A DNA stretch of 25,577 bases from a virus. The stretch is taken from positions 1-25,577 of the IMG/VR virus record IMGVR_UViG_3300017753_000087, one strand, 5' to 3'. Within the stretch, counting starts at the first letter, position 1, and each line of letters starts with the position of its first letter. Below, in pieces: positions 473 through 24,773 of this stretch. The position numbers and the translations under genes are program-made. Under the pieces are notes generated by a model. That model was given only the letters and a program-made list of their open reading frames with translations. It did not search any database and had not been told where the DNA came from.

Positions 473-473
473 T

Positions 474-532
474 GTTAATAACTTTTCACTCAGAATTTTT
501 TTATGTTAAATAAAATTATTATATTACCTTAT
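474..532 (+). promoter_or_regulatory. Phage promoter-like element P2 (uvdE)
   Basis: Full form of the recurrent element: palindrome GTTAATAAC at 474-482, TTCAC at 485-489, TTTTTTTAT at 496-504, a 14-nt spacer, TTATATTACC at 519-528, then TATATAAAA and a TTAAA leader ending at the ATG. Spacing is the same as in the copies at 3711 and 19746. The leader has no Shine-Dalgarno. Confidence 0.6.
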
Positions 533-546
533 ATAAAATTAAAACT

Positions 547-1566
547 ATGGCAAAACAACTAGGATATGCATGTATAAATATGAATCTTTCAAAAGAAGGT
601 ATCTCATGCAACAGAAGTATGATACGAAGAACATTTGACGCTAAAGGCGTAGAATATGCTTCAGAATTAATAATTACAAACATTACAAACTTATTAAAGC
701 TTGTACAGTGGAATAATGAAAACAATATAAAAGTATATCGCATGTCCAGTGATATGATGCCTTGGATGTCAGAATATGAATTGTCAGATCTACCAGATTA
801 CCAAGAAATATGTGCACTATTAAAAGCTGTTGGCAAAACTGCAATGGATAATGGACAAAGACTGTCGTTCCATCCAGGCCAATTTTGCGTACTAGCTTCA
901 CCAAACGAAAAAGTAGTGCTAAATGCTATAAATGAACTTAACAAGTCTGCACAAATTATGGATCTTATGGGTCTACCAAAGTCTCGTATGGCAAAAATTA
1001 ATATTCATGTCGGCGGTGCATATGGCGATAAACCTTCTGCACTAGATAGATTTTGTAAAAACTTCTTAAGATTACAACCATCTGCTCAAGCTCGTCTTAC
1101 AGTTGAAAATGATGACAAAAAGAATATGTATTCTGTACAAGACCTATATGAAGGTGTATACAAAGTAGTAGGTATACCAATTGTATTTGATTACTTTCAC
1201 CACAAGTTTTGTACAGGCGATATGACTGAAGAACAAGCACTTAAACTTGCAGCAAAAACCTGGCCAAAAGGTGTAAAGCAATGTACTCACTATTCAGAAT
1301 CTAAAAGAAAAGAACAGAAACTTGTAATTGAACAGATTTGTAAAAACAGCAACATAACACTAGAACAAATGCAAGATTTTCCAACGCTATCTGGAATGTA
1401 CAAAGAATTTAGCAAAATAAAAGAACAAGCTCACTCAGACTACATTGTAGACGAAATCAAAGACTACGGTCTAGACATTGATGTAGTTGTCGAAGCAAAA
1501 GCAAAAGAATTAGCGGTACAAGGATACCACAAAAAATATAAAAATATTTTAACTGAAGTTTTTTAG
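547..1566 (+). CDS. uvsE: UV-damage endonuclease (UvdE/UvsE family)
   Basis: A 339-residue TIM-barrel UV-damage endonuclease that would nick DNA 5' of pyrimidine dimers and start alternative excision repair. Family blocks appear in order: LGYACINMNL at residues 5-14, RLSFHPGQF at 105-113, INIHVGGAYGDK at 151-162, LTVENDD at 184-190, FDYFHHKF at 214-221, THYSESK at 247-253, and a C-terminal HSDYI followed by the typical VVEAKAKELA helix. His109, His154, Glu187, Asp215, His218/219 and His248 are the expected metal-ligand positions. Length is normal for the family. The start is the first Met, directly before the conserved first strand, with an A-rich leader behind a promoter-like element. The final codons (GTT TTT TAG) form part of the next promoter-like element. 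A light-damage repair gene fits a surface-ocean phage. Confidence 0.92.
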   Translation: MAKQLGYACINMNLSKEGISCNRSMIRRTFDAKGVEYASELIITNITNLLKLVQWNNENNIKVYRMSSDMMPWMSEYELSDLPDYQEICALLKAVGKTAMDNGQRLSFHPGQFCVLASPNEKVVLNAINELNKSAQIMDLMGLPKSRMAKINIHVGGAYGDKPSALDRFCKNFLRLQPSAQARLTVENDDKKNMYSVQDLYEGVYKVVGIPIVFDYFHHKFCTGDMTEEQALKLAAKTWPKGVKQCTHYSESKRKEQKLVIEQICKNSNITLEQMQDFPTLSGMYKEFSKIKEQAHSDYIVDEIKDYGLDIDVVVEAKAKELAVQGYHKKYKNILTEVF

Positions 1567-2429: not shown

Positions 2430-3554
2430 ATGGCTAGTAAACGAGAAGACAGAGATAATTTAGCAGGAATCGTTGCAGATTCTCTAAATAAAAAATTTAA
2501 GGACTATAAAGTTGCTTATTTTTTAGATGGAGCAGAAGATACTCCAACAGATTTAACCGAATGGATAAGTACAGGATCTTCTATGTTAGACATGGCCATA
2601 TCTAATCGCCCTAACGGCGGTATACCAGTTGGTAGAATTACCGAAATAACTGGTTTAGAAGCCTCAGGTAAGTCTTTAGTAGCAGCTCAAATTTTAGCAA
2701 ATACTCAGAAAAAAGATGGATTAGCTGTATATATTGATACAGAAAATGCAATGAATGAAGAGTTTTTAAGAACTATTGGTATAGACGTTTCTAAAATGTT
2801 ATATATTCAATTGGAAACAGTTGAAGATATTTTTGAAGTAATAGACAATATAATAACTAAAGTTAGAGAAAGCGACAAAGATAGACTTGTTAGCATAGTT
2901 GTTGATTCTGTAGCAGCTGCCACAACTAGAGTAGAGCAATCAGCTGATTATGATAAAGATGGTTGGTCAACTGGTAAAGCTATTATTCTTTCAAAAGCAA
3001 TGCGTAAAATAACGCAAATGATTGGAAGACAAAGAATAGCTTTAATGTTTACAAATCAACTTAGACAGAAAATGGGAGTTATGTTTGGTGACCCTTGGAC
3101 AACAAGTGGTGGGAAAGCAATAGCATTCCACGCTAGTTGTAGATTAAGACTAAAGGCTGCAGGCCAGATAAAGGCAAAAGTTAATGGTCAAGATCAAACA
3201 GTTGGTATTAAAACAAAATGCCAAGTTGTTAAAAATAGAATGGGCCCGCCATTGCGAACAGCAGAATTTGATATTTACTTTGATAGCGGAATAGATGAGT
3301 TTGGTGGATGGCTAAGAGTTTTGAAAGACTATAAATTAGTTTCTCAAAGTGGCGCATGGTATACATACACAACAGACGACGGAGAGGTTATTAAGTTTCA
3401 ATCAAAAGATTGGAATGAAAAACTTGAAAAAGACGATCATCTAAGACAAGAAGTATATGATAAAATTTGTAGTACTCTTATTATGGAATATAAGGTAGAC
3501 AATTTTGGAATAGATGACTTAGAGCATACAGATGAAGCACCTCCAATAGGTTAA
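2430..3554 (+). CDS. uvsX: UvsX recombinase (RecA/Rad51 superfamily)
   Basis: A 374-residue T4 UvsX-type strand-exchange ATPase that forms filaments on ssDNA and drives recombination-dependent replication. Walker A is GLEASGKS at residues 75-82. The catalytic glutamate region is YIDTEN at 101-106. Walker B is LVSIVVDS at 153-160. The mid-region FTNQLRQKMGVMFGDPWTTSGG contains the conserved NQ that senses nucleotide and the DNA-binding loop 2. Length is close to T4 UvsX. It starts 3 nt after the gp32-like stop with no Shine-Dalgarno, so it is probably translationally coupled and co-transcribed from the promoter at 1559-1589. Confidence 0.93.
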   Translation: MASKREDRDNLAGIVADSLNKKFKDYKVAYFLDGAEDTPTDLTEWISTGSSMLDMAISNRPNGGIPVGRITEITGLEASGKSLVAAQILANTQKKDGLAVYIDTENAMNEEFLRTIGIDVSKMLYIQLETVEDIFEVIDNIITKVRESDKDRLVSIVVDSVAAATTRVEQSADYDKDGWSTGKAIILSKAMRKITQMIGRQRIALMFTNQLRQKMGVMFGDPWTTSGGKAIAFHASCRLRLKAAGQIKAKVNGQDQTVGIKTKCQVVKNRMGPPLRTAEFDIYFDSGIDEFGGWLRVLKDYKLVSQSGAWYTYTTDDGEVIKFQSKDWNEKLEKDDHLRQEVYDKICSTLIMEYKVDNFGIDDLEHTDEAPPIG

Positions 3555-3704: not shown

Positions 3705-3710
3705 ATTTTT

Positions 3711-3768
3711 GTTAATAACTTTTCACCTAAAATTTTTTTATTTCAATTAATTTTCTTATATTACCTAT
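3711..3768 (+). promoter_or_regulatory. Phage promoter-like element P3 (exonuclease)
   Basis: Full element with the same spacing as at 474 and 19746: GTTAATAAC at 3711-3719, TTCAC at 3722-3726, TTTTTTTAT at 3733-3741, 14 nt, TTATATTACC at 3756-3765. Unlike the other copies, the ATG of the downstream gene lies inside the conserved CCTATAT part, only 5 nt after the TTATATTA core. Confidence 0.55.
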
Positions 3769-4821
3769 ATGAATAAAAACTACACAGAATTATTAAATAG
3801 TCTAAAAAACGACGAAATGCCCAAAGGAGCAGACGACAGAATTTTAATTATTGACGGCCTAAATACTTTTATCAGAAGTTTTGTTGTTGTACCAACAGTA
3901 AACGATAATGGAATACATGTTGGTGGAATTACTGGTTTTCTAATGTCTATAGGATACGCCATTAGAAATATTAAACCAACGAGAGTTATTATATGTTTTG
4001 ATGGTAAAGGTGGAAGCCAAAAGCGCAGAAAGCTTTTTCCAAACTACAAATCTAGTAGAAGAGTAAAACATAGGATGACTAGAATAAACGAATTTAATAG
4101 CGTTGATGACGAGAGAATTGCAATGGCTCAACAACTTCAACGTCTATCTGAATATTTAGAAACTTTACCTGTGACAGTATTATCTCCAGAAAATATAGAA
4201 GCTGATGATGCAATGGCTTATATTTCTCAACAAGTATATCCTAAAAGCCAATGTATTATTATGTCGACTGATAGAGATTTTTTACAACTAGTTGACGATA
4301 GAGTACAAGTTTGGTCTCCAACAAAAAAGAAGTTTTATTTTAAAGAAACAATAAAAGAAGAATTTAACATATATTCTAAAAACTTTCTAATGTATAGAGT
4401 ACTAACTGGAGACAGTTCAGACGATATACCTGGAATAAGAGGAGCTGGATCTAAAACATTAATGAAACGACTTCCAATACTATTTGATGAAAAGAAAATA
4501 CAATTAAATGATATATTTAAGTATATAGAAAAATCTAATGATGGAACAAAACTATCTGCAGATATTTTAAAAAGTAAAGATATGTTAGAATTAAACCATC
4601 AATTAATGCAATTAGATGAGGTAGATATTCCAGGTAGAACAAAACAATCTATACTAGAAATTGTACAAAAACCAATATCAAAGTTGACGCAAATAAAATT
4701 TTTATCTATGACTTTAGATGATACACTTAACTTAAATATAAAAAACCCTCAGTTGTGGCTTAAAGATACGTTTGGCAAGCTTGATGTATTTGCTAGAAGA
4801 AAAGATAATGAAAGTAAGTAA
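3769..4821 (+). CDS. rnh: FEN-family 5'-3' exonuclease / T4 RNase H-like
   Basis: A 350-residue FEN/5' nuclease, the T4 RNase H counterpart that removes RNA primers and flaps during lagging-strand synthesis. The metal-binding acidic residues are in the expected order: LIIDGLN (Asp29), IICFDGKGG (Asp78) followed by the basic KRRKLFPNYKSSRR clamp at 86-98, IEADDAMAY (Glu144, Asp146, Asp147), STDRDFLQLV (Asp168, Asp170) and GDSSDDIPGIRGAGSKT (Asp215, Asp218, Asp219, plus the H3TH DNA-binding turn). The assigned ATG lies inside a promoter-like core. An internal Met17 (3817) would give a protein starting just before the first catalytic strand and is a real alternative. The 3' end overlaps the helicase gene by 14 nt. 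Confidence 0.88.
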   Translation: MNKNYTELLNSLKNDEMPKGADDRILIIDGLNTFIRSFVVVPTVNDNGIHVGGITGFLMSIGYAIRNIKPTRVIICFDGKGGSQKRRKLFPNYKSSRRVKHRMTRINEFNSVDDERIAMAQQLQRLSEYLETLPVTVLSPENIEADDAMAYISQQVYPKSQCIIMSTDRDFLQLVDDRVQVWSPTKKKFYFKETIKEEFNIYSKNFLMYRVLTGDSSDDIPGIRGAGSKTLMKRLPILFDEKKIQLNDIFKYIEKSNDGTKLSADILKSKDMLELNHQLMQLDEVDIPGRTKQSILEIVQKPISKLTQIKFLSMTLDDTLNLNIKNPQLWLKDTFGKLDVFARRKDNESK

Positions 4822-6234: not shown

Positions 6235-8444
<2,210 letters not shown>

Positions 8445-8470
8445 TTTGTTTTATTTCTATATTTATATAT

Positions 8471-11400
8471 ATGTGTATATCTGACAACAGTTGTAGTATA
8501 AGTACTGAATTTGGAAATCTAAATTCTCAGCAACTCTCATGTAGTTATTTTCCATTATCTTTAGGAAATTATCCATGGAACTTCACCCCATTAGAAACAA
8601 ACATGTCAACCCCAGGTGTAGTAAATGCTGATTCTATAGTCTTAGATCCATACATTCCTAGTTTAGAAATTGGAATGGTTGGATTTTCAACTGGAGCCTC
8701 TCCTTCTGAGTTTGTAATAACGTCACTAAACGAACCAGACGCAGAAATAGATGTTGCCCCATTGATAACCATTGGTCCAGGAGTACCAATATCTTTTACA
8801 AAAACCCAAGGTAGGGTTTCGTGTAGTATATTTAAACTATCTGAATCTGTTCAAACAAAAGATAGAGAAAATGCCTGTGTAGATTTTTTACAATTTTTTG
8901 TATCTAGTGGTAGTAACGCCCCTCATCAACAACCGACAACCCATATATTTACAGACGATGGATTTGACTTTTCGGTAACCCCACAGCAAGAACTATTAGT
9001 TTGGCAAGGAGGTTGGACAACGCAAAATACCTTTATTGAAGCAGACCAATTATCAATTGGTACACCATTAGTATCTTGGGCAAATGATATATATCAATAT
9101 GTTCAAATTACATCTATGAGTTATGACGCAAATAACTCTGTTGGAGTAAATTGGATGACGACTGGAACAAATAGTTACCAACTAGAAAACGGAATAGTTG
9201 TTAGAGGATTCATAGATGACTATTGTTCTTGTTCTCCAAGCGCCAGCATAAATGACGTTCCTTGCGACAGCACAGCATCATACTGTGTTAGTGAATCACT
9301 AGAACTTAGATTTTCAGGATCAGAGTCTGGAGGAAGTGACGATGGCCAAGGTGGTGGAACATTTAAAAACTGGAGTGTTGTTGTAAATGAAGGAAACGTA
9401 GTTGCAGATTCAACACTTGCAAATAACAATCAGGAATTAACCATGTCTATTAGTCACCTTTCACAGTCTGCAAACTTAACTATTTGCTATACTGAAAGTA
9501 GACACCTTGGACCGATAAGTTCTACACCATATGAATTTGACCAAGGCCAATTTTATGTTGGTAGTTTAACTTCTCAATCTGTAGAAGTATCTGGTGGATA
9601 TATTGCAAGTGCATCATCTCTACCTGAAGTTGGCATATTACTAGACGCAGTGTTGGGAACTGGAGCAATTGAACAGACTTATACCCCATTTGTAGCAACG
9701 CATCAGGAATCAGATCCTAGTAGTGTTACGTATACACATTTTCACTATTTTATATATTGCACTGGCTCCCATGCAAACTTGCCCGGAGTAAACGAAGGAT
9801 TTACTTCTCAATCATATTATCTCTATGGAGTTAACACGCACATTCACCTTTTTGCATCTGATTCAGCAGATGATGGCCAATTGCATCAAGAACATCCATC
9901 ATATTCTAACGCTGGATATAGTTTAGCTTGGAAAATAAATTCTTTATGGACAGCCTCAGCAGACATAACAGATCCTAATCCATTTGTGACGCCAGCTAAT
10001 GGTGGTGCCAATAGGTTTGGTTATAATTTTGGAACGTTTGGACATTCAACAACTTGGAGAAATAATAATGCGTTTAGTGGAATGCATTCCTGGCCAAGCG
10101 CTTCATATGCATACAGACCAACAAATATTACTCCAGCAAATGGAGTAGAACCTATAAGCATTGCAAACGATTTTGACAGTACATATTATGGAGATACAAT
10201 ATTTTTAATATCGCCTCAGACTGGCAGTAGATGTGCATCCCACAATGACCCATCCCACAGAAACTTAACTTGGGCCTCAACTGGATCTTTCTTTTATACC
10301 GGTTCCTATCCTCACTTAACTTGGGGAGGTGCAGTATGTTCTGATACAGATTATGGAATAGTGGCTAGTGACGATTGTTGTTTTAATTTAAGATTAAATA
10401 GAAAGCCATTTGCAGATTTTGGAGATACAATATGTCAAAAAAATGCAGGGTCAGCTATAAATTTAACCGAAGAATTACCGATATTAAACGCAGATACAAT
10501 AATATATACTTTAGCTTCTGGAGCAATTGGAACGTTTTTGTTTGAAGATACTAGGAGTCTTCTTATATTAGATCCTTCAACTTTTTCAAAGGGAAAGGTA
10601 ACTGTATGCTACACGGCATCGTCTAATAATCCAGATTGTACCAATGATGCAGATGAAACATATGAGACAGGAGCAACTTCAACTCCAGATTGTTGCCCAG
10701 CAATAAGTGGTTGTGCAACAATTTTTTTACATCCTGGATTTTCTGCTGGAAAAGACGCAATTTCTTGCTATCCAACAATGTCTATGACAGGAATTCAGCC
10801 GACTTTTACTTTTACAGATACGGTTGTAAGTCAACCAACATGGTCTCTTAAAGGGGCTATATTACAATTTGATAATTATGAATTAAACCCAATTGTAGCC
10901 CAATCAGACGCCGATGAGATATGGCAAGATTTATCAGGTGCCATAGCAGGAGTACAACCATTTGCAAATACATCGGCAAATTCAAATGCTACAAACTCAT
11001 ATTCAACAGAAATACATATGAATCCAGAAGCCGATGAAGACCTTAATTTTGGATGGTTTACAATGAGTTTAAACGTTTCAAATGGTCCATGTAATTTTTC
11101 TGATACTGCTATTTATTATGTTGCAAGAACTTTTCCACATGCATATAATCCCCATGTAGGACAATTTCGAACAGATTGCCATAATCCAGAAGAGGGAAAT
11201 ATTATTAATGGACCACTTGACCCAGAAACAGGGTTTATACAGCTGCAGGCAACTGGTTCTCCTGGTTTATGGAGTTACGTAGATCCAAACCCTCCAATTG
11301 GCGCACACCCTAATATAGTAGACTTTAATAATCCTACAACTGGAATAAGACTAGGAATCTGCGAAGGTCCAGCAACAGTTCGTTGGACACAAAATAGTTC

Positions 11401-12970
11401 AAGCACGGTTAAAATAGGCAATGAAGATTATGCAATACAATGTGAAGCTTCTCAAGATGTAACTGTAGAAAAAATATCTGCAACAAATAGAATTAATTTA
11501 AAGGGACATAGATTACTTTATTCTCCAAGCGATCCAACAGCTTTTAAAGCATTTACCAGCTCTGTTAGTTATTCAAGAGGAGACGTTGGAGACCATAATG
11601 ATGCAATAACTGTTGGAGGCCCACTAACTATCCATGGAACAAATTTTGGAGCATCTACAACAGATACAGTAAAGTGTATGCATATATTTAATTCACTAAA
11701 CCTCGTACACTCGGCTTCCATTCATTATTCAGTAGATAACCAAATGTCACAAGAAGAATTGGTTATTAACCTCTCCCCTCCATTTTTACCTGACGCTCCT
11801 GATGGAACTAGAATGTTTCAATGGAGAGATGGAGTTGGTGCAAGTATAAATAATGTAGCATTGGCAAGTAGCGAATCTAATCAAGGGTTAATGTCTCAAT
11901 CTAGACTATTTATTCCTGGTACTATTGGTGGCCACAACCCATCTTTTCCAATAAACACTAGTTCATTTTTCTATTTTTCAGCATCAACAAGCCATAGCTA
12001 TGCTAGTGACGGCTATTCTCCAGACATATTTTATCAAATGCACATATCTGGAGCTGCAGATGACTGCAATTGTAGAAACTTTGGATCACAGGCAAGATTA
12101 TATTTTCACAATGATATAGAAAAATTAGAATTTGCAACAATTCCTGGAGTTAACAATTCAATTACAGCTAATTCTGGTGTTGGTGCATTGTCATCAGTAG
12201 TAGCTACTGGAGTAACCCAACTAGAACTAGAACCAAGCTTAGGAATAAATGTACCAACGTACAAAAATGTTGAAGCAATAGGATTCTTTTCAGAATCAGT
12301 AAACAGACTTTCAAGTTTTCCAGGATTTGTAACCATGTCTTCGGTTATAACAACAACTAATAACCCGCCAGCACCTTTTTTAACTGCATCTTGGAAATTT
12401 GGTGCAACTATACCTATTAATCCTGCTAGATCAAGGGCGATCCAAAATATGATTTACAACCCAACTTGGAAATCGTATAATCCATTAGGAGATAGTGGAC
12501 CATCAGGTGGGGGTACTTTTCCAAATAACTTAGACCACTCCAATATAAACTCACTCCGACCTGAACCAGGAACAGGCTTATCAAACGCAGGTATAGGCTT
12601 AAGCTTTGAATGGAATGCTGTAGAACTTTTTCACTATAGAAACGGATCAACTGCTAATTTTACTGACGCACCAGTAATAACTGGTTCATTTGCAGATACA
12701 AGAACTTCACAATCATTTTTTGAAAATCCAACATATTTTCCAGCAAATAGACTAAACGCAAACCAAGTTGCAGGATATGACAATATATTTGCAAGTAATC
12801 AAACCTATGGACCACATGTAATAAATTACGCAAATGCAGCAAATGCTAATCAAAATTCTGTTACAACTTCTTCGGTAATGTTTGAAGTTACCGGTACAAT
12901 TAAAAATTGTAACGGTGATGCCATAAAAACTTATTATGCTTCTCAATCTGTAATGTTTTATAGAGGATAA
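8471..12970 (+). CDS. Giant adhesin/tail-fibre-like structural protein
   Basis: A single 1499-residue reading frame, the largest in the window. It is rich in Ser, Thr, Asn and Gly and poor in Lys, as in beta-rich extracellular proteins. No signal peptide is obvious. Cysteine-containing Ig-like repeats can be picked out: NLTICYTES (about residue 335) and KVTVCYTASS (about 710), and FGDTICQKN near 650. A VGGPLTIHGTNFG segment near 1050 recalls IPT/TIG domains. Paired cysteines recur (CSCS, DCCP, CNC). Such modules resemble Bacteroidetes surface adhesins, which fits a receptor-binding fibre or decoration protein. The ATG at 8471 has no Shine-Dalgarno and lies 3 nt after TATATTTATA (8458-8467). 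If that is a -10 box, the message would be nearly leaderless or Met45 (8603) would be the start. The exact virion role is unknown. Confidence 0.65.
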   Translation: MCISDNSCSISTEFGNLNSQQLSCSYFPLSLGNYPWNFTPLETNMSTPGVVNADSIVLDPYIPSLEIGMVGFSTGASPSEFVITSLNEPDAEIDVAPLITIGPGVPISFTKTQGRVSCSIFKLSESVQTKDRENACVDFLQFFVSSGSNAPHQQPTTHIFTDDGFDFSVTPQQELLVWQGGWTTQNTFIEADQLSIGTPLVSWANDIYQYVQITSMSYDANNSVGVNWMTTGTNSYQLENGIVVRGFIDDYCSCSPSASINDVPCDSTASYCVSESLELRFSGSESGGSDDGQGGGTFKNWSVVVNEGNVVADSTLANNNQELTMSISHLSQSANLTICYTESRHLGPISSTPYEFDQGQFYVGSLTSQSVEVSGGYIASASSLPEVGILLDAVLGTGAIEQTYTPFVATHQESDPSSVTYTHFHYFIYCTGSHANLPGVNEGFTSQSYYLYGVNTHIHLFASDSADDGQLHQEHPSYSNAGYSLAWKINSLWTASADITDPNPFVTPANGGANRFGYNFGTFGHSTTWRNNNAFSGMHSWPSASYAYRPTNITPANGVEPISIANDFDSTYYGDTIFLISPQTGSRCASHNDPSHRNLTWASTGSFFYTGSYPHLTWGGAVCSDTDYGIVASDDCCFNLRLNRKPFADFGDTICQKNAGSAINLTEELPILNADTIIYTLASGAIGTFLFEDTRSLLILDPSTFSKGKVTVCYTASSNNPDCTNDADETYETGATSTPDCCPAISGCATIFLHPGFSAGKDAISCYPTMSMTGIQPTFTFTDTVVSQPTWSLKGAILQFDNYELNPIVAQSDADEIWQDLSGAIAGVQPFANTSANSNATNSYSTEIHMNPEADEDLNFGWFTMSLNVSNGPCNFSDTAIYYVARTFPHAYNPHVGQFRTDCHNPEEGNIINGPLDPETGFIQLQATGSPGLWSYVDPNPPIGAHPNIVDFNNPTTGIRLGICEGPATVRWTQNSSSTVKIGNEDYAIQCEASQDVTVEKISATNRINLKGHRLLYSPSDPTAFKAFTSSVSYSRGDVGDHNDAITVGGPLTIHGTNFGASTTDTVKCMHIFNSLNLVHSASIHYSVDNQMSQEELVINLSPPFLPDAPDGTRMFQWRDGVGASINNVALASSESNQGLMSQSRLFIPGTIGGHNPSFPINTSSFFYFSASTSHSYASDGYSPDIFYQMHISGAADDCNCRNFGSQARLYFHNDIEKLEFATIPGVNNSITANSGVGALSSVVATGVTQLELEPSLGINVPTYKNVEAIGFFSESVNRLSSFPGFVTMSSVITTTNNPPAPFLTASWKFGATIPINPARSRAIQNMIYNPTWKSYNPLGDSGPSGGGTFPNNLDHSNINSLRPEPGTGLSNAGIGLSFEWNAVELFHYRNGSTANFTDAPVITGSFADTRTSQSFFENPTYFPANRLNANQVAGYDNIFASNQTYGPHVINYANAANANQNSVTTSSVMFEVTGTIKNCNGDAIKTYYASQSVMFYRG

Positions 12971-12973
12971 AAT

Positions 12974-13921
12974 ATGAAATATGTTTTAGGATATAATACT
13001 GTTTCTTATTTTACGGCCTATGTTTTAGATATACCATTAATTAAACATAAAACTTTAGAAGAATTAGATAGAAATCATGGAGCAGACTTTATACCGTCTA
13101 ATCTTTTACAATTTACTTCTAATATATTTAAAGACTGTAAAATAGAAGAATATGAAAGATTTTATAATGATAGAGGCAGATTTACTTCAAAACAACCTAA
13201 AAATTTCCATAACCTGTATTCATTATATACCAGGGGAAAAACAAATGTAGAAAAAAGTTATCTAAACCAGCTGGAAAAGTATCAAAAATACGTTTCAATT
13301 AATGGATTAAATGCTGAAGATAGCTTTAATACACTACTTGAAAAAATTAAAGAAAGTGTAAATAAAACTATTATAGATAATCAACTAACAGGTATAGATA
13401 TTCAAGAGAAAGAACTTATTGGTCAACCAGATATAAAATTTACAAATCTCATATCTACTATAAACTTAGTTGATTTGTCAGAACTAGATAAATCTGGAAC
13501 AATTAGAAAATCTATAGTTAAAAACTATAATTTAGAAGGTTTTAATTTGCCTCACAATGACAAATTTATTTATTGCTGTAAACTGGAGTCAACAGAAGAT
13601 AAAACTCTAGCTGGAATATATAAACAGGTACTAGCAACCGGACAACCATATTATAGAAAAACATATAACAAAGATTCTATATTGTATGAATGTATGAGAA
13701 ATATCTATAATAAGCAAATAGAAGGAAATACAATACTTAAATATTCAGAAACAACTCAAATTTCAGATAACCTAAATATAGGTAGATCACTTGGCATTGA
13801 TTTAATTGGAAAGTTTTCTCAATGGAAAGAAAATACAACATTAGAAACAATTTACAATCAATGTATGGAGCTAAATGAATTTTATGATATTGGTGAAAAT
13901 AATCATAAAAAAGTTTTTTAG
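12974..13921 (+). CDS. Uncharacterised protein, degenerate flavoprotein/UDP-galactopyranose-mutase-like
   Basis: A 315-residue protein I do not firmly recognise. The N-terminus YVLGYNTVSYFTAYVL (residues 3-18) looks like the first beta-strand/turn/helix of an FAD- or NAD-binding Rossmann fold, but the GxGxxG glycines are mostly lost. Later segments, LISTINLVDLSEL and a GQPYYRKTYNKDSILYE strand, resemble the ISTIPL and substrate-side strands of UDP-galactopyranose-mutase/amine-oxidase-like phage proteins. The middle (about 75-150) is charged and helical. It starts 3 nt after the giant structural gene with no promoter, so it may be read through from it. Its last codons (GTT TTT TAG) form part of the next promoter element. 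Alternatives are a scaffold-only relative or an unrelated protein. Confidence 0.45.
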   Translation: MKYVLGYNTVSYFTAYVLDIPLIKHKTLEELDRNHGADFIPSNLLQFTSNIFKDCKIEEYERFYNDRGRFTSKQPKNFHNLYSLYTRGKTNVEKSYLNQLEKYQKYVSINGLNAEDSFNTLLEKIKESVNKTIIDNQLTGIDIQEKELIGQPDIKFTNLISTINLVDLSELDKSGTIRKSIVKNYNLEGFNLPHNDKFIYCCKLESTEDKTLAGIYKQVLATGQPYYRKTYNKDSILYECMRNIYNKQIEGNTILKYSETTQISDNLNIGRSLGIDLIGKFSQWKENTTLETIYNQCMELNEFYDIGENNHKKVF

Positions 13922-13970: not shown

Positions 13971-14822
13971 ATGAACAAATTTGACAGCTTACACGAGCTA
14001 TTTTTATCAGAGCTTCAAGCTTTAACTGGTTTTGGAAATCACGTTAATAGCAACGGAAGTAAACAAACAGAATTACTTTTCAGATCTTTTGAATTAACAG
14101 ATCCTACAAAATTAGGAATACGTTTTCCATCTAGAAAATTTAATACAAACTATGCTGTAATGGAATTTTTATGGTATTTATCTAGAAATAAAAGAGTAGA
14201 TAATATTGGCAAGTGCGCAAGTATTTGGCTTAGAATACAAGATGGACAAAATGAAGTAGAATCTAACTATGGTAGCTTTATTCTCGGTCAACAATGGGAC
14301 TGGATCAAGAAAGAGTTAGAAAAAGATAAAGACTCTAGGCGATGTACAATTGTAATAGGTCAACCTTATCATAAAACAAAAAACTGGCACGATATTCCAT
14401 GTACGCAATACCTTCAAGTATTTATTCGAGATAATAAATTGCACTTAGGTGTTAACATGCGAAGTAATGATATTATATTTGGTATGTGTAACGACATATT
14501 TAATTTTGCACTATTTCAACAGTTAATGTTAAATGAACTAAGAGAAATATATCCAGACCTAGAACTAGGTTCTTATTATCATCAAGCAGGTAGTTTACAT
14601 TTATATGATATGCACTATAATATGAGAGATAATATACTTATGGATGCATCTAAAAAAGTCCGCAATGAATTGGTAGATATAAAAAATTGCAAATGGATAT
14701 TAAAACCTGAAATAACTATAGATTATATAGACAAAGAAAAAATATTTTTACCACAAAAAAGCATGGAAAAATTAGAATTGGTAGATTTTACAAACAAACA
14801 AATAAAAAAATTATTTATATGA
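13971..14822 (+). CDS. Thymidylate-synthase-fold enzyme, probable dCMP hydroxymethylase
   Basis: A 283-residue member of the thymidylate synthase (ThyA) superfamily. Visible catalytic elements are Glu65 (MEFLWYL), the Arg pair SRR at 122-124, the nucleophile Cys144 (IPCTQYLQ), Arg164-Ser165-Asp167 (MRSNDIIFG) and His210/Tyr212 (LHLYDMHY). Aligned without gaps from RSxD, the residue matching E. coli ThyA Asn177 is Asp175 (CNDIF). His147 after the catalytic Cys is replaced by Thr145. In this superfamily the Asn-to-Asp change switches the base from dUMP to dCMP, as in T4 gp42 dCMP hydroxymethylase. I therefore infer a dCMP 5-hydroxymethylase, or possibly a methylase, rather than thymidylate synthase. 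Its start follows a promoter-like element, with a weak AAAGGG ribosome site. It overlaps the next gene by 4 nt (ATGA). Confidence 0.8.
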   Translation: MNKFDSLHELFLSELQALTGFGNHVNSNGSKQTELLFRSFELTDPTKLGIRFPSRKFNTNYAVMEFLWYLSRNKRVDNIGKCASIWLRIQDGQNEVESNYGSFILGQQWDWIKKELEKDKDSRRCTIVIGQPYHKTKNWHDIPCTQYLQVFIRDNKLHLGVNMRSNDIIFGMCNDIFNFALFQQLMLNELREIYPDLELGSYYHQAGSLHLYDMHYNMRDNILMDASKKVRNELVDIKNCKWILKPEITIDYIDKEKIFLPQKSMEKLELVDFTNKQIKKLFI

Positions 14823-15100
14823 AAAAGAAAGAATCAATACTTAAAAGGGCTGACGAAATAATTCATAACCGATCAGAAGAAAAAGAAAGAAAATACGGAC
14901 CATTTAGTGAAGGCATGGAAAGAGCTGCAAAAATTGCCAGTGGTATGACTGGTAAAGACTTTGAGGCTGAAGATATGTATGCTGCGCTGGTAGCTTTAAA
15001 ACTATCTAGGCATTCTTATAACTATAGAGAAGATAACTTATTAGACTGCGTAGCTTATTTAGGCGGTTTAGACAACTATATTAAGGAGAAAAAGAAATGA
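14819..15100 (+). CDS. DUF6378-like small protein (possible nucleotide hydrolase relative)
   Basis: A 93-residue, mostly helical protein. Its pattern is an N-terminal ILKRADEIIHNRSEEKERKYG, then AAKIASGM, a VALKLSRHSYN helix and EDNLLDCVAYLGGLDNY. This fits the small phage family I know as DUF6378, which shares the Asp/Glu helix layout of MazG-type NTP pyrophosphohydrolases. Activity is not established. The ATGA overlaps at both ends (with the thymidylate-synthase-fold gene and the dUTPase) place it in one tightly coupled nucleotide-metabolism operon. If the upstream enzyme makes 5-hydroxymethyl-dCMP, a protein that removes dCTP would be needed, and this is one candidate. That link is speculation. 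Confidence 0.6.
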   Translation: MKKKESILKRADEIIHNRSEEKERKYGPFSEGMERAAKIASGMTGKDFEAEDMYAALVALKLSRHSYNYREDNLLDCVAYLGGLDNYIKEKKK

Positions 15101-15537
15101 AAATAACAAAAATTAAAGATGTAAAGACTCCAACAAGAGCAAACACAACCGATGCTGGTGTAGATTTTTTTATACCAAATGATTATACTGGTAAAACTGA
15201 CTTACCACCTGGAGAATCATGTTTTATTCCAAGTGGGATAAAAGTAAACGTACCTGAAGGATATGCTTTAATAGCATTTAATAAATCTGGAGTTGCTACT
15301 AAAAAAGGATTACATGTAGGAGCCTGTGTAGTTGATTGTGGTTATCAAGGAGAACTGCATATAAACTTAACAAACGTAAGCGCAGAATACCAAACAATTG
15401 CAGCAGGAGATAAAATAGTTCAGTTTGTACTATTACCACTAGGTGATCCAACCATAGAATTAGTAGAAGAAAATAATTTATATGAATCAGTATCCACAAG
15501 AGGAGAAGGAGGATTTGGTTCATCAGGAACAAAGTAA
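15097..15537 (+). CDS. dut: dUTPase (trimeric deoxyuridine triphosphatase)
   Basis: A 146-residue trimeric dUTPase that hydrolyses dUTP to dUMP and keeps uracil out of DNA. All five family motifs are present in order: DAGVDF at 19-24, NKSGVATKKGL at 62-72, GACVVDCGYQGEL at 75-87 (catalytic Asp80, uracil-stacking Tyr83), AGDKIVQF at 103-110 and STRGEGGFGSSG at 133-144. Motif 2 reads NKSG where PRSS is usual, a mild variation. Length is typical. A good Shine-Dalgarno (AAGGAG, about 8 nt upstream) and an ATGA overlap with the previous stop mark the start. The dUMP made here could feed host thymidylate synthesis, since the phage's own ThyA-fold enzyme looks dCMP-specific. Confidence 0.95.
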   Translation: MKITKIKDVKTPTRANTTDAGVDFFIPNDYTGKTDLPPGESCFIPSGIKVNVPEGYALIAFNKSGVATKKGLHVGACVVDCGYQGELHINLTNVSAEYQTIAAGDKIVQFVLLPLGDPTIELVEENNLYESVSTRGEGGFGSSGTK

Positions 15538-15540
15538 AAT

Positions 15541-16611
15541 ATGATAACATTAGTAGATAAAATTAAAGATAAAGGTATTAAAATAGGTATTGACGGACTT
15601 TCTGGTGCAATATCAAAAAGAATATCAAACCATAACGGGGCATGGGCTCACAAGGTAATGAACCAATGTATAAATGCAGGATATACTGACGTAACAATTT
15701 TAGATAAATCAGAAAAACTAAATAGTTACGACGTAATTATACTCTATATGGGTATAAGTTATGAAGGAACACTTAATCTTTTTGGAGGCCTAGGCGATGA
15801 CTTTTGTAAAAAACTTATTCAACTAGAAAGCTTTCCAGGAAAACTATTATCCTTACAACATGAAATGCCAGATTTGGTAGATATGGTTTCAAAAAGACTT
15901 AAAAATAGTTCAACATCTCCTTTAGCCCATATAATAGATTTAGAAGAATTACAAAAAGCAGTTAACAAAACAGAAAAATTTGATATAGTAGAAAAAACCA
16001 CAAAATTATGTTTTGGTGATAGCCACTCTTTTTCAATGTATCAACCAGGATATATGACTAGTCGTAACGACGGATTAACCCTTTATTCTGTATTAAGAGA
16101 CGGTTTAAAGGATAAAATACTAGAAAAATCTGGAATAAATACTGAAGACTTAACCCATTTAACATTTTACGCAGGTAATATAGATATTAGACACCACTTA
16201 TGTAGAAGAGAAGACTATTCTAAAGCTACTGAGGTTATGGTATTATATTTGGCAGATCAAATAAATTGTTTAAATATAAAAAATGTAGAATTAGTGCATG
16301 CTCTACCAATTGAAGATGAAAGTAGAAAATTACCTAAAACAGGATATTATAAAGATACTCCATTTTACGGAACATGGGAACAAAGATCAGAAGTTGTAAA
16401 AACATTTAATAAAACTATAGATACTGTTTGTGAACTATATGGTTGGACAGCTAAATCATGGCCGTCTAATATATTAAATGATAAAAAACAATTATCGTTT
16501 GACGCAATGGAAAAACCTAAAAGTGTTCACTTAAGCAGAGAATATTATAGATGGGATATGGAAAATAATTGCGAAAATAAATACCACAAAAGTGTAGTTT
16601 TTTCGTTCTAA
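15541..16611 (+). CDS. SGNH/GDSL-like protein of unknown substrate
   Basis: A 356-residue protein with two parts. Residues 1-145 contain strands of a possible alpha/beta domain (VTILDKSEK, YDVIILYMG) and a GLGDDF loop. From about 155, LCFGDSHSFSMYQPG (Gly159-Asp160-Ser161) matches SGNH block I. YAGNIDIRHHL (Asn213) could be block III, and SVHLSREYY (His330) resembles block V, although the Asp normally three residues before that His is Lys here. So Ser, Asn and His of an SGNH esterase may be present without the usual Asp. Substrate unknown; possibilities include acyl, acetyl or glycan esters. It follows the dUTPase by 3 nt and closes this transcription unit. Confidence 0.55.
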   Translation: MITLVDKIKDKGIKIGIDGLSGAISKRISNHNGAWAHKVMNQCINAGYTDVTILDKSEKLNSYDVIILYMGISYEGTLNLFGGLGDDFCKKLIQLESFPGKLLSLQHEMPDLVDMVSKRLKNSSTSPLAHIIDLEELQKAVNKTEKFDIVEKTTKLCFGDSHSFSMYQPGYMTSRNDGLTLYSVLRDGLKDKILEKSGINTEDLTHLTFYAGNIDIRHHLCRREDYSKATEVMVLYLADQINCLNIKNVELVHALPIEDESRKLPKTGYYKDTPFYGTWEQRSEVVKTFNKTIDTVCELYGWTAKSWPSNILNDKKQLSFDAMEKPKSVHLSREYYRWDMENNCENKYHKSVVFSF

Positions 16612-16648
16612 CTTAGTATTTATATTGGGGAAAATAAAAGTGAAATAA

Positions 16649-16688
16649 TTTTTCCGATTAAAAAAAATTTATTATATTATATAAAATA
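16649..16688 (+). promoter_or_regulatory. Promoter-like element P8 before the inositol operon
   Basis: TTATATTA at 16672-16679, followed by TATAAAATAACAATTAAAGAGG. The leader has both the AATTAAA motif and a Shine-Dalgarno (AGAGGA). The upstream T-rich box is weak (T5 at 16649-16653) compared with the other copies. A separate TAGTATTTATATTGGGG lies just upstream at 16615-16630. Confidence 0.4.
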
Positions 16689-16708
16689 ACAATTAAAGAG
16701 GAATCAAA

Positions 16709-17896
16709 ATGGCAAAAAATAGTAAAATTAAAGTAGGAATCATAGGAACAGGAAACTGTGCAAAGTCGCTTGTAGAAGGCGTACAATATTATGCTGAAAA
16801 TATTAAAGCAGAAACAGGAGTAATGAAAACAGATATTGGAGGTTATTTAGCAGGAGATGTTGAATTTGTAGTAGGGTTTGATATTGACGAACGTAAAACT
16901 GGTTTACCATTAGGTGAAGCATTACAACAACGACCAAACTGTGCATGGAATATTGTAGATAATATTGAATCTAAAGCACCAGTATTTGAAGCACCTGTTA
17001 TCGATGGTTATGCTGGTTTAATGGATAATTATCCTGAAGAAAATAGATTCTTAGTTTCTGAAAAGCTAAGAAATTCTACAGATATGAATAGAGTATCTTG
17101 GACCAATAAATTAGAAAGAAAATGGAAAGATACCATAATTAAAGAATTAAAATCAAAAAAAGTAGAAGTACTTGTTAACTATTTACCCGTTGGTTCACAA
17201 AAAACTACAGAATTTTGGGCTGAAATTTGTTTAGAAACTGGAATTTCTTTTGTAAATTGTATCCCAGTATTTATTGCATCTGACCCAGCTTGGGAACAAA
17301 GATTTATTGATGCTGGTATACCATTAATTGGAGACGATATGCGTTCTCAATTTGGGGCAAGTATTTTATCTCAGATGCTACAAGAATTAGCATTTGAAAG
17401 AGGTCACCATGTAAAAGCACACATCCAAAGAAATGTTGGTGGTAATACTGACTTTTTAAATATGGAAGACAAAACCAGATTAGCTTCAAAAAAGATTTCT
17501 AAAGAAAATGTTATTAGAGCTCAAAATGAAATTAGAGGTATTTCTACTGAAGATTCATTCCTCCATGCAGGACCTTCTGAATATATTCATTTTTACGGAG
17601 ATAATAAAGTTGCAAACTTTAGATTAGAGCTTGAAGGTTTTGGCGGTTCTCCAGTATTGTTTGATGCCCAATTAAGTGTTCAAGACAGTCCAAATTCTGC
17701 AGGAGTAGTAATAGATGCAATAAGATACTTAAAAGTTGCAAGAGAATTAGGAGTAGTAGGAGCACTAAGAGGTCCATCTGCTTTTACTCAAAAAACTCCA
17801 CCAGATCAAATGATGTTTTCAGACGCTGTTTATGAATGTACTGAACTAGCAAACAGAAGGTTAACTGAATCTACTTCAAAACAAATGAATAAATAA
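16709..17896 (+). CDS. ino1: myo-Inositol-1(3)-phosphate synthase
   Basis: A 395-residue NAD-dependent inositol-phosphate synthase of the bacterial/archaeal type, converting glucose 6-phosphate to inositol 3-phosphate (1L-myo-inositol 1-phosphate). The NAD-binding start is VGIIGTGNCAKS at 9-20. Family blocks include FVVGFDID, VNYLPVGSQ, FVNCIPVFIAS, IPLIGDDMRSQFGAS, HIQRNVGGNTDFLN and the C-terminal KVARELGVVGALRGPSAF. Length is normal, so it should be active. The start has a Shine-Dalgarno and a promoter-like element. The HAD phosphatase starts 2 nt after its stop and the aGPT-Pplase-like gene overlaps that, making a three-gene operon. Phage-encoded inositol synthesis is unusual. It may supply a precursor for DNA or surface modification, or redirect host lipid or osmolyte metabolism. 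Confidence 0.93.
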   Translation: MAKNSKIKVGIIGTGNCAKSLVEGVQYYAENIKAETGVMKTDIGGYLAGDVEFVVGFDIDERKTGLPLGEALQQRPNCAWNIVDNIESKAPVFEAPVIDGYAGLMDNYPEENRFLVSEKLRNSTDMNRVSWTNKLERKWKDTIIKELKSKKVEVLVNYLPVGSQKTTEFWAEICLETGISFVNCIPVFIASDPAWEQRFIDAGIPLIGDDMRSQFGASILSQMLQELAFERGHHVKAHIQRNVGGNTDFLNMEDKTRLASKKISKENVIRAQNEIRGISTEDSFLHAGPSEYIHFYGDNKVANFRLELEGFGGSPVLFDAQLSVQDSPNSAGVVIDAIRYLKVARELGVVGALRGPSAFTQKTPPDQMMFSDAVYECTELANRRLTESTSKQMNK

Positions 17897-17898
17897 TT

Positions 17899-18294
17899 AT
17901 GAAAGTAAACGGATTTGATATTGATGGAGTAATCCATTTAGGAAATGGAATATGCGGCGTAAGACCAGGCCCAAACGATGTAATAATAACTGGCAGAAGC
18001 CATGAAGAAGAGCCAGAAACAAAAGCTTTCTTACACAAACATGGTATAAAAAATGAAGTTTATTTTAATCCTTTACCGTTTAAGGTAAAATCTAGAGAAT
18101 CTTCTGGTACCCATAAAGCTAGAACTTTACAGTGGTTAAAAGAAGTAAAAACTATAGATGTTCAATTTTTCTTTGAAGACGATGAGGTACAAAAAGCAGA
18201 AATAGAAAAAAGCTGGAACGGTAAAGTAATACACGTTTCACACGATTTTACTGAAAAAGAAAATGTAAGACACTTAGAGGATTTGCATGCCTAA
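17899..18294 (+). CDS. Small HAD-superfamily phosphatase
   Basis: A 131-residue, capless HAD hydrolase with all four motifs: FDIDGVI (nucleophile Asp7, acid/base Asp9), VIITGRS (Thr31), the Lys in GTHKARTL (Lys73) and FFEDDEVQ (Asp94/Asp95). The catalytic set is complete, so it should be an active phosphatase. Substrate is unknown. It starts 2 nt after the inositol-phosphate synthase and overlaps the aGPT-Pplase-like gene by 8 nt. A reasonable guess is that it dephosphorylates the synthase product to free inositol or acts on a DNA-modification intermediate, but related small HADs also act on nucleotides or polynucleotide ends. Confidence 0.8.
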   Translation: MKVNGFDIDGVIHLGNGICGVRPGPNDVIITGRSHEEEPETKAFLHKHGIKNEVYFNPLPFKVKSRESSGTHKARTLQWLKEVKTIDVQFFFEDDEVQKAEIEKSWNGKVIHVSHDFTEKENVRHLEDLHA

Positions 18295-19750
18295 TATTTT
18301 AATACCAGCTGGAAGCACAAAAGACCAATCACTCAGAAATTCTATTGATTGGGATGTACTAAAAGATTATGAGCATTTTGTTAAGATGGTTAATAAACGA
18401 ACACTATTTCAAAAAGGAATATTAGAGTCATACACTCCAACAGACCCAGCTTTGGGATTAGAAGTAGAATATTTTCACCCTTCAATAACTGCAGATGATA
18501 GAATGGTGTACATTATGGAAAATATTGTTACTGTGCCAGGACTAAAATGGCAAAACGTTATTGGTAACACTATTATATCTCACTTTTATGGAGCAAGAGG
18601 CGTTCATAATGTTTTAACTGGCATTGATGATGATAAAAAAGCCCATATTGATTTTATTCTACTAGGAAAAGAGCAACAACAGTTTAAAGAAACTGGTGAG
18701 GTAGGAGAATACACTAAAAAACTTAGAAAAATTGCAGTTGCAGCTAAAGAAAATAAACAAAAAATATGGGGTACAACTGAACTTCATACAAGCATACAAA
18801 CTGCCGGTAGAAGATTTGTTAATGAATGGTATCTAGGAAATGCTAGACACGACGACAAAGGAACATGGTCAAATGTTTCAGAATGGATAGCATCTTGGAC
18901 ACATAGACCTTCTGGACATAATCCTAAAAAAACAGTTATGACAGGCATGAGAGAAGCAAAAGACCTTTATGAAGGATTTTTATACTTAACAGGCGAAAAT
19001 ATGATTGGAGACTATTACGGTTACCATTGCTCAACATCAAACTCTGTTAATCCAAAATTAAACTTTAGCCATGATTCAAAGTTCGTAGCTCCAGGTCCAG
19101 GAGCATGTGAAACTCTAGAATTAATGTTTCCAGGTTTATCTAAAAAAGAAGTACCTTTAGGTGAAAGGGTTGTTTGGATACGAGAAAACCAAAAAGAAAT
19201 TTTAGATATACAGTTTCATAAAGAATTGTGGAACTATACAACAGAAAATGGTATTAAAATATTTGAAGATGAGCAAAATGAATTAAAATCATACGGTACT
19301 GAAGTAAGTCTTTGCCAGTACTCTGTTTACTGCAGGCTTAAAAATAATCCTCACTTAATAAAAAAGAGGAAAGTTGCTAGAGTTGCTCCAAAAGCAAAAC
19401 CTCAACTACTATTTGAAAAAACAGAAATGGAAGAGGTATTAGTAGGAGAAACTTGTAAAGTTAAAATGATTAAAGAAGAACCATCTTCTATAATTGTTTC
19501 AAAAATAAAAACTGCTAAAACTAAAAAAATAACCTTAAACCAACCAAATATAGATTTAATAAAAAGAATAATGTCTTCATTGGGTAATACTTCCATAAGA
19601 CACGATCAAGTATTAAAGGTTATTATATCAGAAGGTGGCCACGGATTAAGACTTGACAGCAATTGGAAAGAGAGCTGGGCAATAATGCAAGAAATGGTTA
19701 AAGCAAACATGCTAATTAAAACTGGACAATACTACGATCTAAATTGTTAA
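18287..19750 (+). CDS. aGPT-Pplase / HMUDK_hel-like DNA base-hypermodification protein
   Basis: A 487-residue protein resembling the alpha-glutamyl/putrescinyl-thymine pyrophosphorylase clade (amino acid:DNA transferases) and the helical domain of 5-hydroxymethyl-dU DNA kinases. Matching blocks: FVKMVNKRTLFQKG...YTPTDPALG...DDRMVYIMENI (31-80), GARGVHNVLTG (102-112), the IGDYYGYHC helix (240-248), HDSKFVAPGPGACETLELMFPG (262-283), the family's GPG motif, and LCQYSVYCRLK (342-352), equivalent to the terminal LCE-DKY-R block. Relatives attach groups to activated 5-hydroxymethyl pyrimidines in DNA. Residues 370-487 are an extra basic linker plus a helical, winged-helix-like tail (LIKRIMSSLG...), perhaps for DNA binding. 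No P-loop kinase is fused. The assignment is from remembered family motifs and needs a profile search. Confidence 0.6.
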   Translation: MPNILIPAGSTKDQSLRNSIDWDVLKDYEHFVKMVNKRTLFQKGILESYTPTDPALGLEVEYFHPSITADDRMVYIMENIVTVPGLKWQNVIGNTIISHFYGARGVHNVLTGIDDDKKAHIDFILLGKEQQQFKETGEVGEYTKKLRKIAVAAKENKQKIWGTTELHTSIQTAGRRFVNEWYLGNARHDDKGTWSNVSEWIASWTHRPSGHNPKKTVMTGMREAKDLYEGFLYLTGENMIGDYYGYHCSTSNSVNPKLNFSHDSKFVAPGPGACETLELMFPGLSKKEVPLGERVVWIRENQKEILDIQFHKELWNYTTENGIKIFEDEQNELKSYGTEVSLCQYSVYCRLKNNPHLIKKRKVARVAPKAKPQLLFEKTEMEEVLVGETCKVKMIKEEPSSIIVSKIKTAKTKKITLNQPNIDLIKRIMSSLGNTSIRHDQVLKVIISEGGHGLRLDSNWKESWAIMQEMVKANMLIKTGQYYDLNC

Positions 19751-19808
19751 TAACTTTTAACCAAATATTTTTTTATTTCAAATAAATTGTTTATATTACC
19801 TATATAAA
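19746..19808 (+). promoter_or_regulatory. Phage promoter-like element P4 (DNA polymerase)
   Basis: Full element: GTTAATAAC at 19746-19754 (straddling the previous stop codon), TTAAC at 19757-19761, TTTTTTTAT at 19768-19776, 14 nt, TTATATTACC at 19791-19800, then TATATAAAAATTAAACTATG. The core and leader are nearly identical to the copy at 24722-24775. No Shine-Dalgarno. Confidence 0.6.
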
Positions 19809-19817
19809 AATTAAACT

Positions 19818-22276: not shown

Positions 22277-22313
22277 TTTTAAAATTATATTTATATTAGT
22301 AAATTAAACAGTT
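22277..22313 (+). promoter_or_regulatory. Promoter-like element P9 before groES-groEL
   Basis: Overlapping TTATATTT (22285-22292) and TTATATTA (22291-22298), followed by GTAAATTAAACAGTTATG. This gives the AATTAAA leader seen elsewhere. The upstream T-box is weak (TGTTTTA at 22275-22281). It likely drives the chaperonin operon. Confidence 0.4.
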
Positions 22314-24710: not shown

Positions 24711-24728
24711 ATTCACCAGAATTTTTTT
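24695..24728 (+). terminator. Rho-independent terminator of the chaperonin operon
   Basis: Perfect 10-bp stem TTCTGGTGAA (24695-24704) / TTCACCAGAA (24712-24721), 7-nt loop containing the stop codon, then seven T (24722-24728). The same T-tract and the TTCAC of the right arm also fit the upstream boxes of the next promoter-like element. Confidence 0.9.
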
Positions 24729-24762: not shown

Positions 24763-24773
24763 AATTAAACTAT

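Follow-up and report, generated by a model that had tools for sequence, protein, structure and literature searches.

What a giant adhesin-like gene is doing among the nucleotide-metabolism genes of a phage, and whether it came there as a mobile module, are the questions raised by a stretch of viral DNA of 25,577 nucleotides (IMG/VR record IMGVR_UViG_3300017753_000087, positions 1 to 25,577), referred to here as the window, which makes up the whole of that record. The gene, which we call BIG, lies at 8471-12970 on the forward strand, as do all its parts described below, and encodes a protein of 1499 residues. The reading frame, pointed out in an earlier note made from the sequence alone, is real and uninterrupted and starts with ATG, the frame extending no more than about 11 codons before it. 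The protein has 30 cysteines, 3.7% Lys+Arg and a pI of 4.5, and the richness in Ser, Thr and Asn previously remarked upon (28.6%) does exceed the 11.8-23.2% of the 20 other window proteins compared. Our analysis points to a surface protein that is probably carried on the virion, encoded at a fixed locus where divergent alleles are exchanged in place.

The immunoglobulin-like (Ig-like) character attributed to BIG was confirmed at the level of the family by profile-profile comparison, by a hidden Markov model (HMM) of repeats and by a structure model of the 1035-aa homolog L085. Direct searches gave no match for five BIG homologs in Pfam, NCBIfam and PHROGs (E<=10), nor for the BIG protein of the window among PDB sequences (E up to 1) or named phages (E 0.01). 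In hhalign runs using 10 of the 16 alignment rows (those with 30 or fewer residues in a segment were dropped), the units U2 (aa 739-879; 10685-11107) and U3 (aa 872-1003; 11084-11479) matched the PKD repeats of Bacteroidota with P-values of 7.2e-5 and 5.4e-15, each reached by 0 of 60 shuffles. No PKD match was obtained for the N-terminal domain (P 0.43) or for the C-terminal region (P 0.076; aa 1240-1499, 12188-12967), which holds conserved motifs in the alignment and is modelled with low confidence. U1 (aa 634-728; 10370-10654) is Ig-like by the L085 model only, and its candidacy as a PKD unit was rejected as unsupported (P 0.4, not significant); an hhalign match of U2 to U3 (score 29) proved to be an artefact of the 8-residue overlap between the two segments and was not used.

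The family profile also matched three of 395 sampled Bacteroidota genomes, at model positions 742-841 (U3) and each time within a long open reading frame (ORF; 3737, 3607 and 1410 aa); two of these host proteins carry PF22352 (K319L-like PKD) domains and the third has no PKD match in Pfam. With filters off, the host proteins scored 64.7, 62.3 and 29.5 bits, against 3.2 bits for the best of 900 shuffles and three reversals. An HMM of the repeat, built from 13 host units, matched six of the 16 BIG homologs (L087, L012, L088, L006 and the near-identical L083 and L084) at 18.5-38.3 bits, the best of 1616 shuffled and reversed controls reaching 10.9. Judging from these comparisons, U2 and U3 are homologous to the PKD/Ig-like repeats of giant Bacteroidota surface proteins. 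Hence, the proposal that the gene was taken from Bacteroidetes adhesins holds as regards the kinship of two repeats, and not as regards the direction of transfer, on which homology is silent.

The L085 model is best in residues ~300-380, 411-460 and 493-632. Its top Foldseek match in the PDB was GhpA of Aureispira (E 1.4e-10, with TM-scores of only 0.12-0.13), and the best 50 of 133 matches at E<=0.001 were mostly Ig and cadherin proteins; the BFVD list contained many phage Ig, PKD and tail proteins. In the structural alignment tool VIA, residues ~305-634 aligned with Ig and cadherin chains at Z<=7.5, a level that the tool terms common. A model of a single 352-aa piece (mean predicted local distance difference test score, pLDDT, 32.9) was not used. 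The domain duplication read into the motifs LTICYTES (aa 336) and VTVCYTAS (aa 710) did not hold up: the protein contains 71 pairs of 8-mers with at least five identities, a figure reached by seven of 50 shuffles, the first motif sits in a region that is not conserved within the family, and U1, which ends near the second, aligned with U2 no better than shuffles did (12 of 60 reached its score).

The N-terminal domain (aa 2-247; 8474-9211), in which Cys2 follows the initiator Met, is among the best conserved parts of BIG, and the predicted fold of these ~250 residues is well supported as a degenerate HINT (intein/Hedgehog) fold without splicing residues. VIA placed only inteins and Hedgehog autoprocessing domains in ranks 1-21 of 50 for the L085 model (Z 8.9-10.8; 104-143 residues aligned, mostly model residues 40-177), ahead of GhpA in row 22 (Z 8.8) and of Ig rows from Z 7.5 down. 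With large alignments (11 of 16 BIG rows, near-copies and fragments being left out, and 17 of 20 intein loci, of which row L147 had its N-part wrongly cut and misaligned), hhalign scored 23.1 against inteins in local mode (shuffles 12.4 +/- 2.4, maximum 21.0) and 13.8 in global mode (shuffles 2.8 +/- 2.3, maximum 10.2), and 0 of 150 column shuffles reached either score. The alignment puts T170-x-x-Q173 of the window on what we take, following the intein literature for block names, to be block B, and NSYQLENGIVVRG on the intein C-terminus.

It is less likely that the domain is not HINT at all and that a poorly predicted all-beta model has produced a spurious structural match. The pLDDT of the L085 model, in blocks of ten residues, is 21-29 at 1-80, 57-77 at 81-150 and 31-46 at 151-180; hhalign with small alignments gave P 0.38 and 0.1, against 0.35 for an unrelated control; and no HINT was returned by PDB-sequence searches, by Pfam searches with the N-domain pieces of eight homologs (sub-cut-off PF01366 at E 0.3 and PF17572 at E 0.02) or by a PF07591 search of 61 genomes. 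Against it stand the ranking of HINT rows above Ig rows, the improvement of hhalign to P 0.0067 as sequences were added, and the fact that blocks B, F and G are in register in the larger alignment. A profile of the domain found two hits in 395 Bacteroidota genomes, a pair of similar 124-aa lipoprotein-like ORFs, which were rejected as lying at about chance level (E 0.005-0.006).

The block-B His (TxxH) is Gln173 in the window and His in only three of 11 rows (L006, L087, L088), and the C-terminal His-Asn of inteins is missing from all 11, with Arg/Lys-Gly in its place. Several inteins are reported to splice without these His residues (PMC7664689), so that loss of His does not by itself settle the matter; absence of the Asn and of an N-extein counts more heavily against splicing. 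Since it lacks the residues needed for splicing, the domain is expected to serve for structure or docking. Of the 16 alignment rows, 14 include the N-terminus and all of these have Cys2, but in the global alignment intein Cys1 falls on Cys46 of L085, the counterpart of Cys118 in the window; the equivalent of Cys1 may be either Cys2 or Cys118. An insert of ~70-78 aa from aa 38 (nucleotide 8582 on) is common, among rows holding the N-terminus, to the window, L002, L108 and L109 only, and L120 has a longer, different insert. Initiator Met is usually removed before Cys. Its removal here would leave Cys2 as a free N-terminal residue at the HINT active-site position, from where it could become linked in trans to a protein of the particle, through a thioester or an amide. 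A re-purposing of the HINT fold as a virion docking module or covalent anchor with exchangeable Ig-like units strikes us as improbable; if true, viruses would here be putting the intein fold to a new use.

The element at the start of BIG bears on when the protein is made. The candidate late-type promoter element TATATTTATATATAT (8458-8472, forward strand) runs into the BIG start codon, and the only copy of the motif ATATTTATATA in the window lies one base before that codon (0.23 copies expected). The window and four related records hold 27 copies of ATATTTATATA, of which 19 lie within 60 bases before a start: six before structural genes (adaptor, two sheaths, tube and two hubs), two before GroES, four before BIG and seven before unidentified genes, and none before a gene recognised as replication or nucleotide metabolism (in record G008, two structural genes were identified by homology and GroES by eye). 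A position weight matrix (PWM), built from six sites before structural genes of relatives and run on 13 relatives, put BIG first in the window at 18.9 bits, followed by the next gene at 11.0, the maximum of 60 Markov resamplings being 16.2. The site before the BIG homolog had an equal score in all 13 relatives, ranking first in 12 and second to GroES in L120. A weaker copy (10.6 bits) precedes GroES in the window at 22286-22300, and the GroES sites elsewhere score 20.2 (G001), 14.7 (G010) and 20.3 bits (L120). Late promoter is thus a reasonable label for a candidate element, and since its enrichment out of sample was not significant it is not a demonstrated one.

We think it rather probable that BIG is a surface protein made late in infection, probably borne by the virion, and that it brings a T4-like phage with a contractile tail into contact with its host cells, Bacteroidota bearing the type IX secretion system (T9SS). 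Of the host-range or decoration role suggested earlier, a probable role in host contact or decoration is supported, as is the adhesin-like, Ig-like make-up. Attachment to the particle would fall to the N-domain or the C-terminal region, and binding of variable structures on the host surface to the Ig-like units together with the variable regions; divergent alleles would stay in circulation through selection for new contacts with hosts. The host is likely a T9SS-bearing Bacteroidota member, given the T9SS sorting domain PF18962 in related records and the PKD kinship of BIG: that domain exceeds its cut-off in a giant protein of four of 13 related records (G001, G008, G009 and G010), G001 being the BIG carrier among them, and T9SS is reported to belong to the Fibrobacteres-Bacteroidetes-Chlorobi superphylum (PMC11205867). 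The kind of relatives found suggests a marine source.

Several results weigh against this reading. The L085 model has a mean pLDDT of 44.5 and depicts a homolog instead of BIG of the window. A profile search with default filters found again only one of the three host proteins (the third), and the repeat HMM did not rise above shuffles in 10 of 16 homologs, among them L085 (10.1 bits for one unit) and the window (best unit 5.4 bits), so that the PKD homology holds for the family profile and not for the window sequence by itself. Scans of five homologs revealed no known domain for binding to capsid or tail. The start element is also present ahead of GroES and, in part of the relatives, ahead of hyp114, and in six records outside the training set, two of which (G004, G007) had structural homologs, it reached 11 bits before four of 20 structural genes and nine of 83 others (Fisher 0.22, rank test 0.41), the nine being GroES, hyp114 and RNR genes; most tail genes presumably sit inside operons. 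Lastly, the ratio of nonsynonymous to synonymous change (dN/dS) is below 1 in every 100-codon window of BIG with a finite value, and positive selection is therefore not shown.

BIG might instead be a true Hoc-type capsid decoration, sitting on the head and not on the tail, with a capsid-binding domain diverged beyond recognition. A string of Ig-like domains in a T4-like phage fits this idea, as do Hoc proteins of more than 1000 residues with varying Ig-like parts (PMC10385173). We judge it unlikely, because searches of PHROGs, Pfam and NCBIfam with the five homologs returned nothing for Hoc at E<=10, and because the conserved binding domain of Hoc is described as usually C-terminal (PMC10385173), whereas in BIG the N-domain is among the best conserved parts. 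Hoc was not among the 50 VIA rows, a result without bearing on the C-terminal region.

A role off the virion is rather unlikely as well. On that reading, the infected cell would produce the protein and display it or set it free at lysis, for instance to stick debris together or to block receptors (superinfection exclusion or aggregation). In favour of this, related records encode another giant Cys-rich protein with a T9SS sorting domain, and the phage group thus seems to make host-exported surface proteins. BIG itself, on the other hand, has no hydrophobic N-terminal signal as judged by eye (no signal-peptide program was run), PF18962 was not matched in the window record, which is a fragment, and the BIG start element is one shared with structural genes.

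The probable virion surface protein resides at a constant place in the genome. Searches with the BIG protein, two profiles and the downstream gene, together with a ribonucleotide reductase (RNR) scan (best 80 of at least 600 matches), found homologs on 14 other viral contigs (L002, L006, L009, L012, L083, L084, L085, L086, L087, L088/L118, L108, L109, L112 and L120), complete ones having 1035-1719 aa. Wherever a contig extends far enough to reveal the slot of BIG, it is the same one in all 14. The gene had been placed between RNR (6235-8094, forward; class II, phrog_367 E 2e-135, with the B12-dependent RNR insertion domain PF21995 at its cut-off) and a dCMP-type enzyme, which is here thymidylate-synthase-like (TS; 13971-14822, forward; PF00303 E 1.2e-15, phrog_160 E 9.1e-33). 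This is correct, with two further genes in between: hyp78 upstream of the slot (8208-8444, forward), found in carriers and several non-carriers, and hyp315 downstream (12974-13921, forward), some versions of which start with GAGPAG, FAD/NAD-binding-like by eye. Each of the two neighbours is seen on 13 of the 14 contigs, hyp78 being out of sight in L112, which begins within BIG, and hyp315 in L108, which stops within it. Among 18 loci with both RNR and hyp315, BIG is present in 10 and absent from eight; in seven of the latter the gap measures 81-310 bases, and in the eighth (L007) it measures 1443 bases and holds a PALP (cysteine-synthase-like) enzyme (12219-13115; PF00291 E 5.7e-67), which indicates that the hyp78-hyp315 junction takes different cargo.

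Phylogeny agrees with this picture. In trees of rows covering more than 85% of the gene at more than 50% identity (RNR non-carriers below 84.5% identity being left out, and rows with the slot out of sight, 16 for UvsX, 17 for DnaB and nine for RNR, being put in no group), scorable carriers lie on one side of a branch and non-carriers on the other for both UvsX (11 against six; support 99/97) and DnaB (12 against eight; 100/100), and presence or absence of BIG requires a single change on each. The carrier grouping is weakly supported in the TS tree (71/67), and the poorly resolved RNR tree needs five label changes, of which its starred branches force only one. A profile search of 12 related records gave matches only at known BIG loci, in five records, and of 60 stretches of genome contigs that fit a pattern none was a relative. 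Given a single clade of carriers by both UvsX and DnaB, use of the same slot, and eight relatives lacking BIG there, BIG is a fixed locus specific to one phage clade, not the mobile module proposed in the earlier note, for which different sites or a scattered distribution over the tree would be expected; neither was seen. That BIG is a mobile cassette that recently jumped into the RNR-TS region is very improbable, for the missing copies and the alternative PALP cargo count for less than one slot in one clade and the failure of all searches to find a second site.

Immobility of the locus does not mean immobility of its alleles. The earlier note would have abandoned mobility given synteny in relatives and no sign of exchange; synteny was found, and so was exchange, alleles having been swapped in place. 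In 500-base bins, nucleotide identity of the window to L109 is 94% at 2.5 kb and has dropped to 78% at 8 kb; four of the nine bins between 8.5 and 13 kb are unalignable and five align partly at 66-77%, after which identity recovers, with 72% at 13 kb and 97% at 15 kb. L112 shows the complementary pattern, with 89-98% across its BIG half and TS and 79-84% at 15-16.5 kb, where L109 has 94-97%. In phylogenies of UvsX and DnaB, L109 falls beside the window, but in that of TS its partners are L006 and L120 (100/99). The drop in BIG, the complement in L112 and the tree switch of L109 establish that divergent BIG alleles are exchanged between relatives by recombination at the fixed locus. In a gene-by-gene comparison of 10 loci, synonymous difference to L109 is 0.53-0.69 from RNR through TS and 0.10-0.21 in DUF6378, dUTPase, p356 and MIPS, with 29% in UvsX; it is also raised in exo53 (52%), DnaB (41%), p131 (37%) and hmUK (36%), which makes the genome a mosaic. 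The BIG protein of L109 is nevertheless the closest full-length homolog of the window after L002, at 47% identity and with the N-domain insert in common.

Within the closest pair, the window and L002, BIG has the highest dN/dS (0.25, against 0.00-0.12 in nine other genes). Two variable regions were delimited. The first, at aa ~300-600 (9368-10270), emerges from the alignment and pairwise windows and is mostly missing in L085; the second, at aa ~1001-1100 (11471-11770), is the lowest-identity window (81%) of that closest pair, and has 56% identity between L006 and L087 (L006 numbering), whose lowest value is 55%.

Phages with Ig/PKD adhesins are already known (Hoc, PMC10385173; gut-phage adhesins, PMC13370021), and several described systems resemble BIG. 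The Bacteroidota PKD/Ig surface proteins (PF22352; GhpA, PDB 9fly, the best Foldseek PDB match to the homolog model) share a homologous PKD/Ig-like unit with it, but BIG is phage-encoded, has only two units supported by sequence and a HINT-like N-domain, and lacks both an export signal by eye and a PF18962 match. Hoc of T4-like phages is likewise an Ig-like string that varies between relatives and attains very long versions (PMC10385173); BIG differs in having no detectable Hoc capsid-binding domain, in being about four times as long as the 376-residue Hoc of T4 and in lying among replication genes. The modular Ig/BACON/PKD adhesins of gut phages, some of them myoviruses, are encoded by phages predicted to infect Bacteroidota and were selected for binding to mammalian epithelium, as outlined in PMC13370021, whereas BIG is found in uncultured viral contigs only and carries a HINT-like N-domain. 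With the HINT superfamily (inteins, Hedgehog autoprocessing domains and bacterial intein-like domains) BIG shares its predicted fold, block order and an invariant Cys near the N-terminus, and departs from it in lacking an N-extein and the C-terminal His-Asn and in its rare block-B His, so that splicing is not expected. Pelagimyophages, marine T4-like phages, also have a hypervariable host-contact region, but theirs is a cluster described as lying within the structural region between VrlC and gp14 (PMC7029224), while BIG is a single gene in the replication region.

New, as far as our searches reach, are the BIG family, its fixed slot among nucleotide-metabolism genes, the allele exchange and the degenerate HINT front, an unusual fold at that end of a phage adhesin; among the PMC papers listed, judged by titles and abstract beginnings, none was about a HINT domain in a virion adhesin, PMC leaving out most subscription journals. 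These results suggest that phages of marine Bacteroidota may vary their host contact at a locus outside the tail cluster, and that this locus is kept diverse by in-place allele exchange.

The remainder of the window is a T4-like replication block, in which UvdE, gp32, UvsX, a 5'-3' exonuclease, a DnaB-like helicase, RNR, hyp78, BIG, hyp315 and TS are followed by DUF6378, dUTPase, p356 (phrog_17781/13881), a myo-inositol-phosphate-synthase-like gene (MIPS), p131 (small, phrog_415), hmUK (hmdU-kinase-helical-domain), family B polymerase, GroES and GroEL. The reported distance from visible tail genes is borne out: none was recognised in the window, and in the related record G002 the recognised ones lie upstream of the BIG homolog on the same strand, with a sheath gene starting 29 kb and a hub gene ending 25 kb before it, and large unassigned genes after the hub reaching up to 13 kb before it. 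The row of genes at 13971-19750 (TS-like, DUF6378, dUTPase, phrog_17781-type, inositol-phosphate-synthase-like and hmdU-kinase-helical-domain) may form a cluster for hypermodification of DNA bases. An element of 62-76 bases is scattered over the window (473-547, 1531-1605, 3710-3782, 16668-16731, 19745-19820 and 24712-24773); copies stand ahead of the genes for UvdE, gp32, the exonuclease, the MIPS-like protein and the polymerase, with another at 24.7 kb, and the element is possibly a promoter module of early or middle genes. For UvsX (2430-3554) the top-ranked named phage was Microcystis phage Mel-JY01, and as the identity is only 54%, the collection holds no close cultured member by this gene.

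Record G001 offers further observations. On its contig L097 (5769-10696, reverse strand), the BIG homolog and the adjacent hyp315 are each split over two frames, through either sequencing error or real decay. Contig L094 encodes, at 10127-13588 on the reverse strand, a giant protein of 1153 aa, rich in cysteine (62 residues), whose N-terminus resembles a signal peptide by eye and whose C-terminal end carries PF18962; 80 of 85 viral matching stretches were kept (its own contig and the relatives L153-L231), and all eight relatives scanned have PF18962. This looks like a virus-encoded T9SS cargo, and of the papers listed for T9SS and phage none has a title on phage-encoded cargo. About eight unrelated-looking genes on the same contig (7552-19226, reverse strand) include several that share, by eye, an N-terminus like MIKLKDILSE, which we take to be reminiscent of the capsid-targeting leaders of T4 internal proteins.

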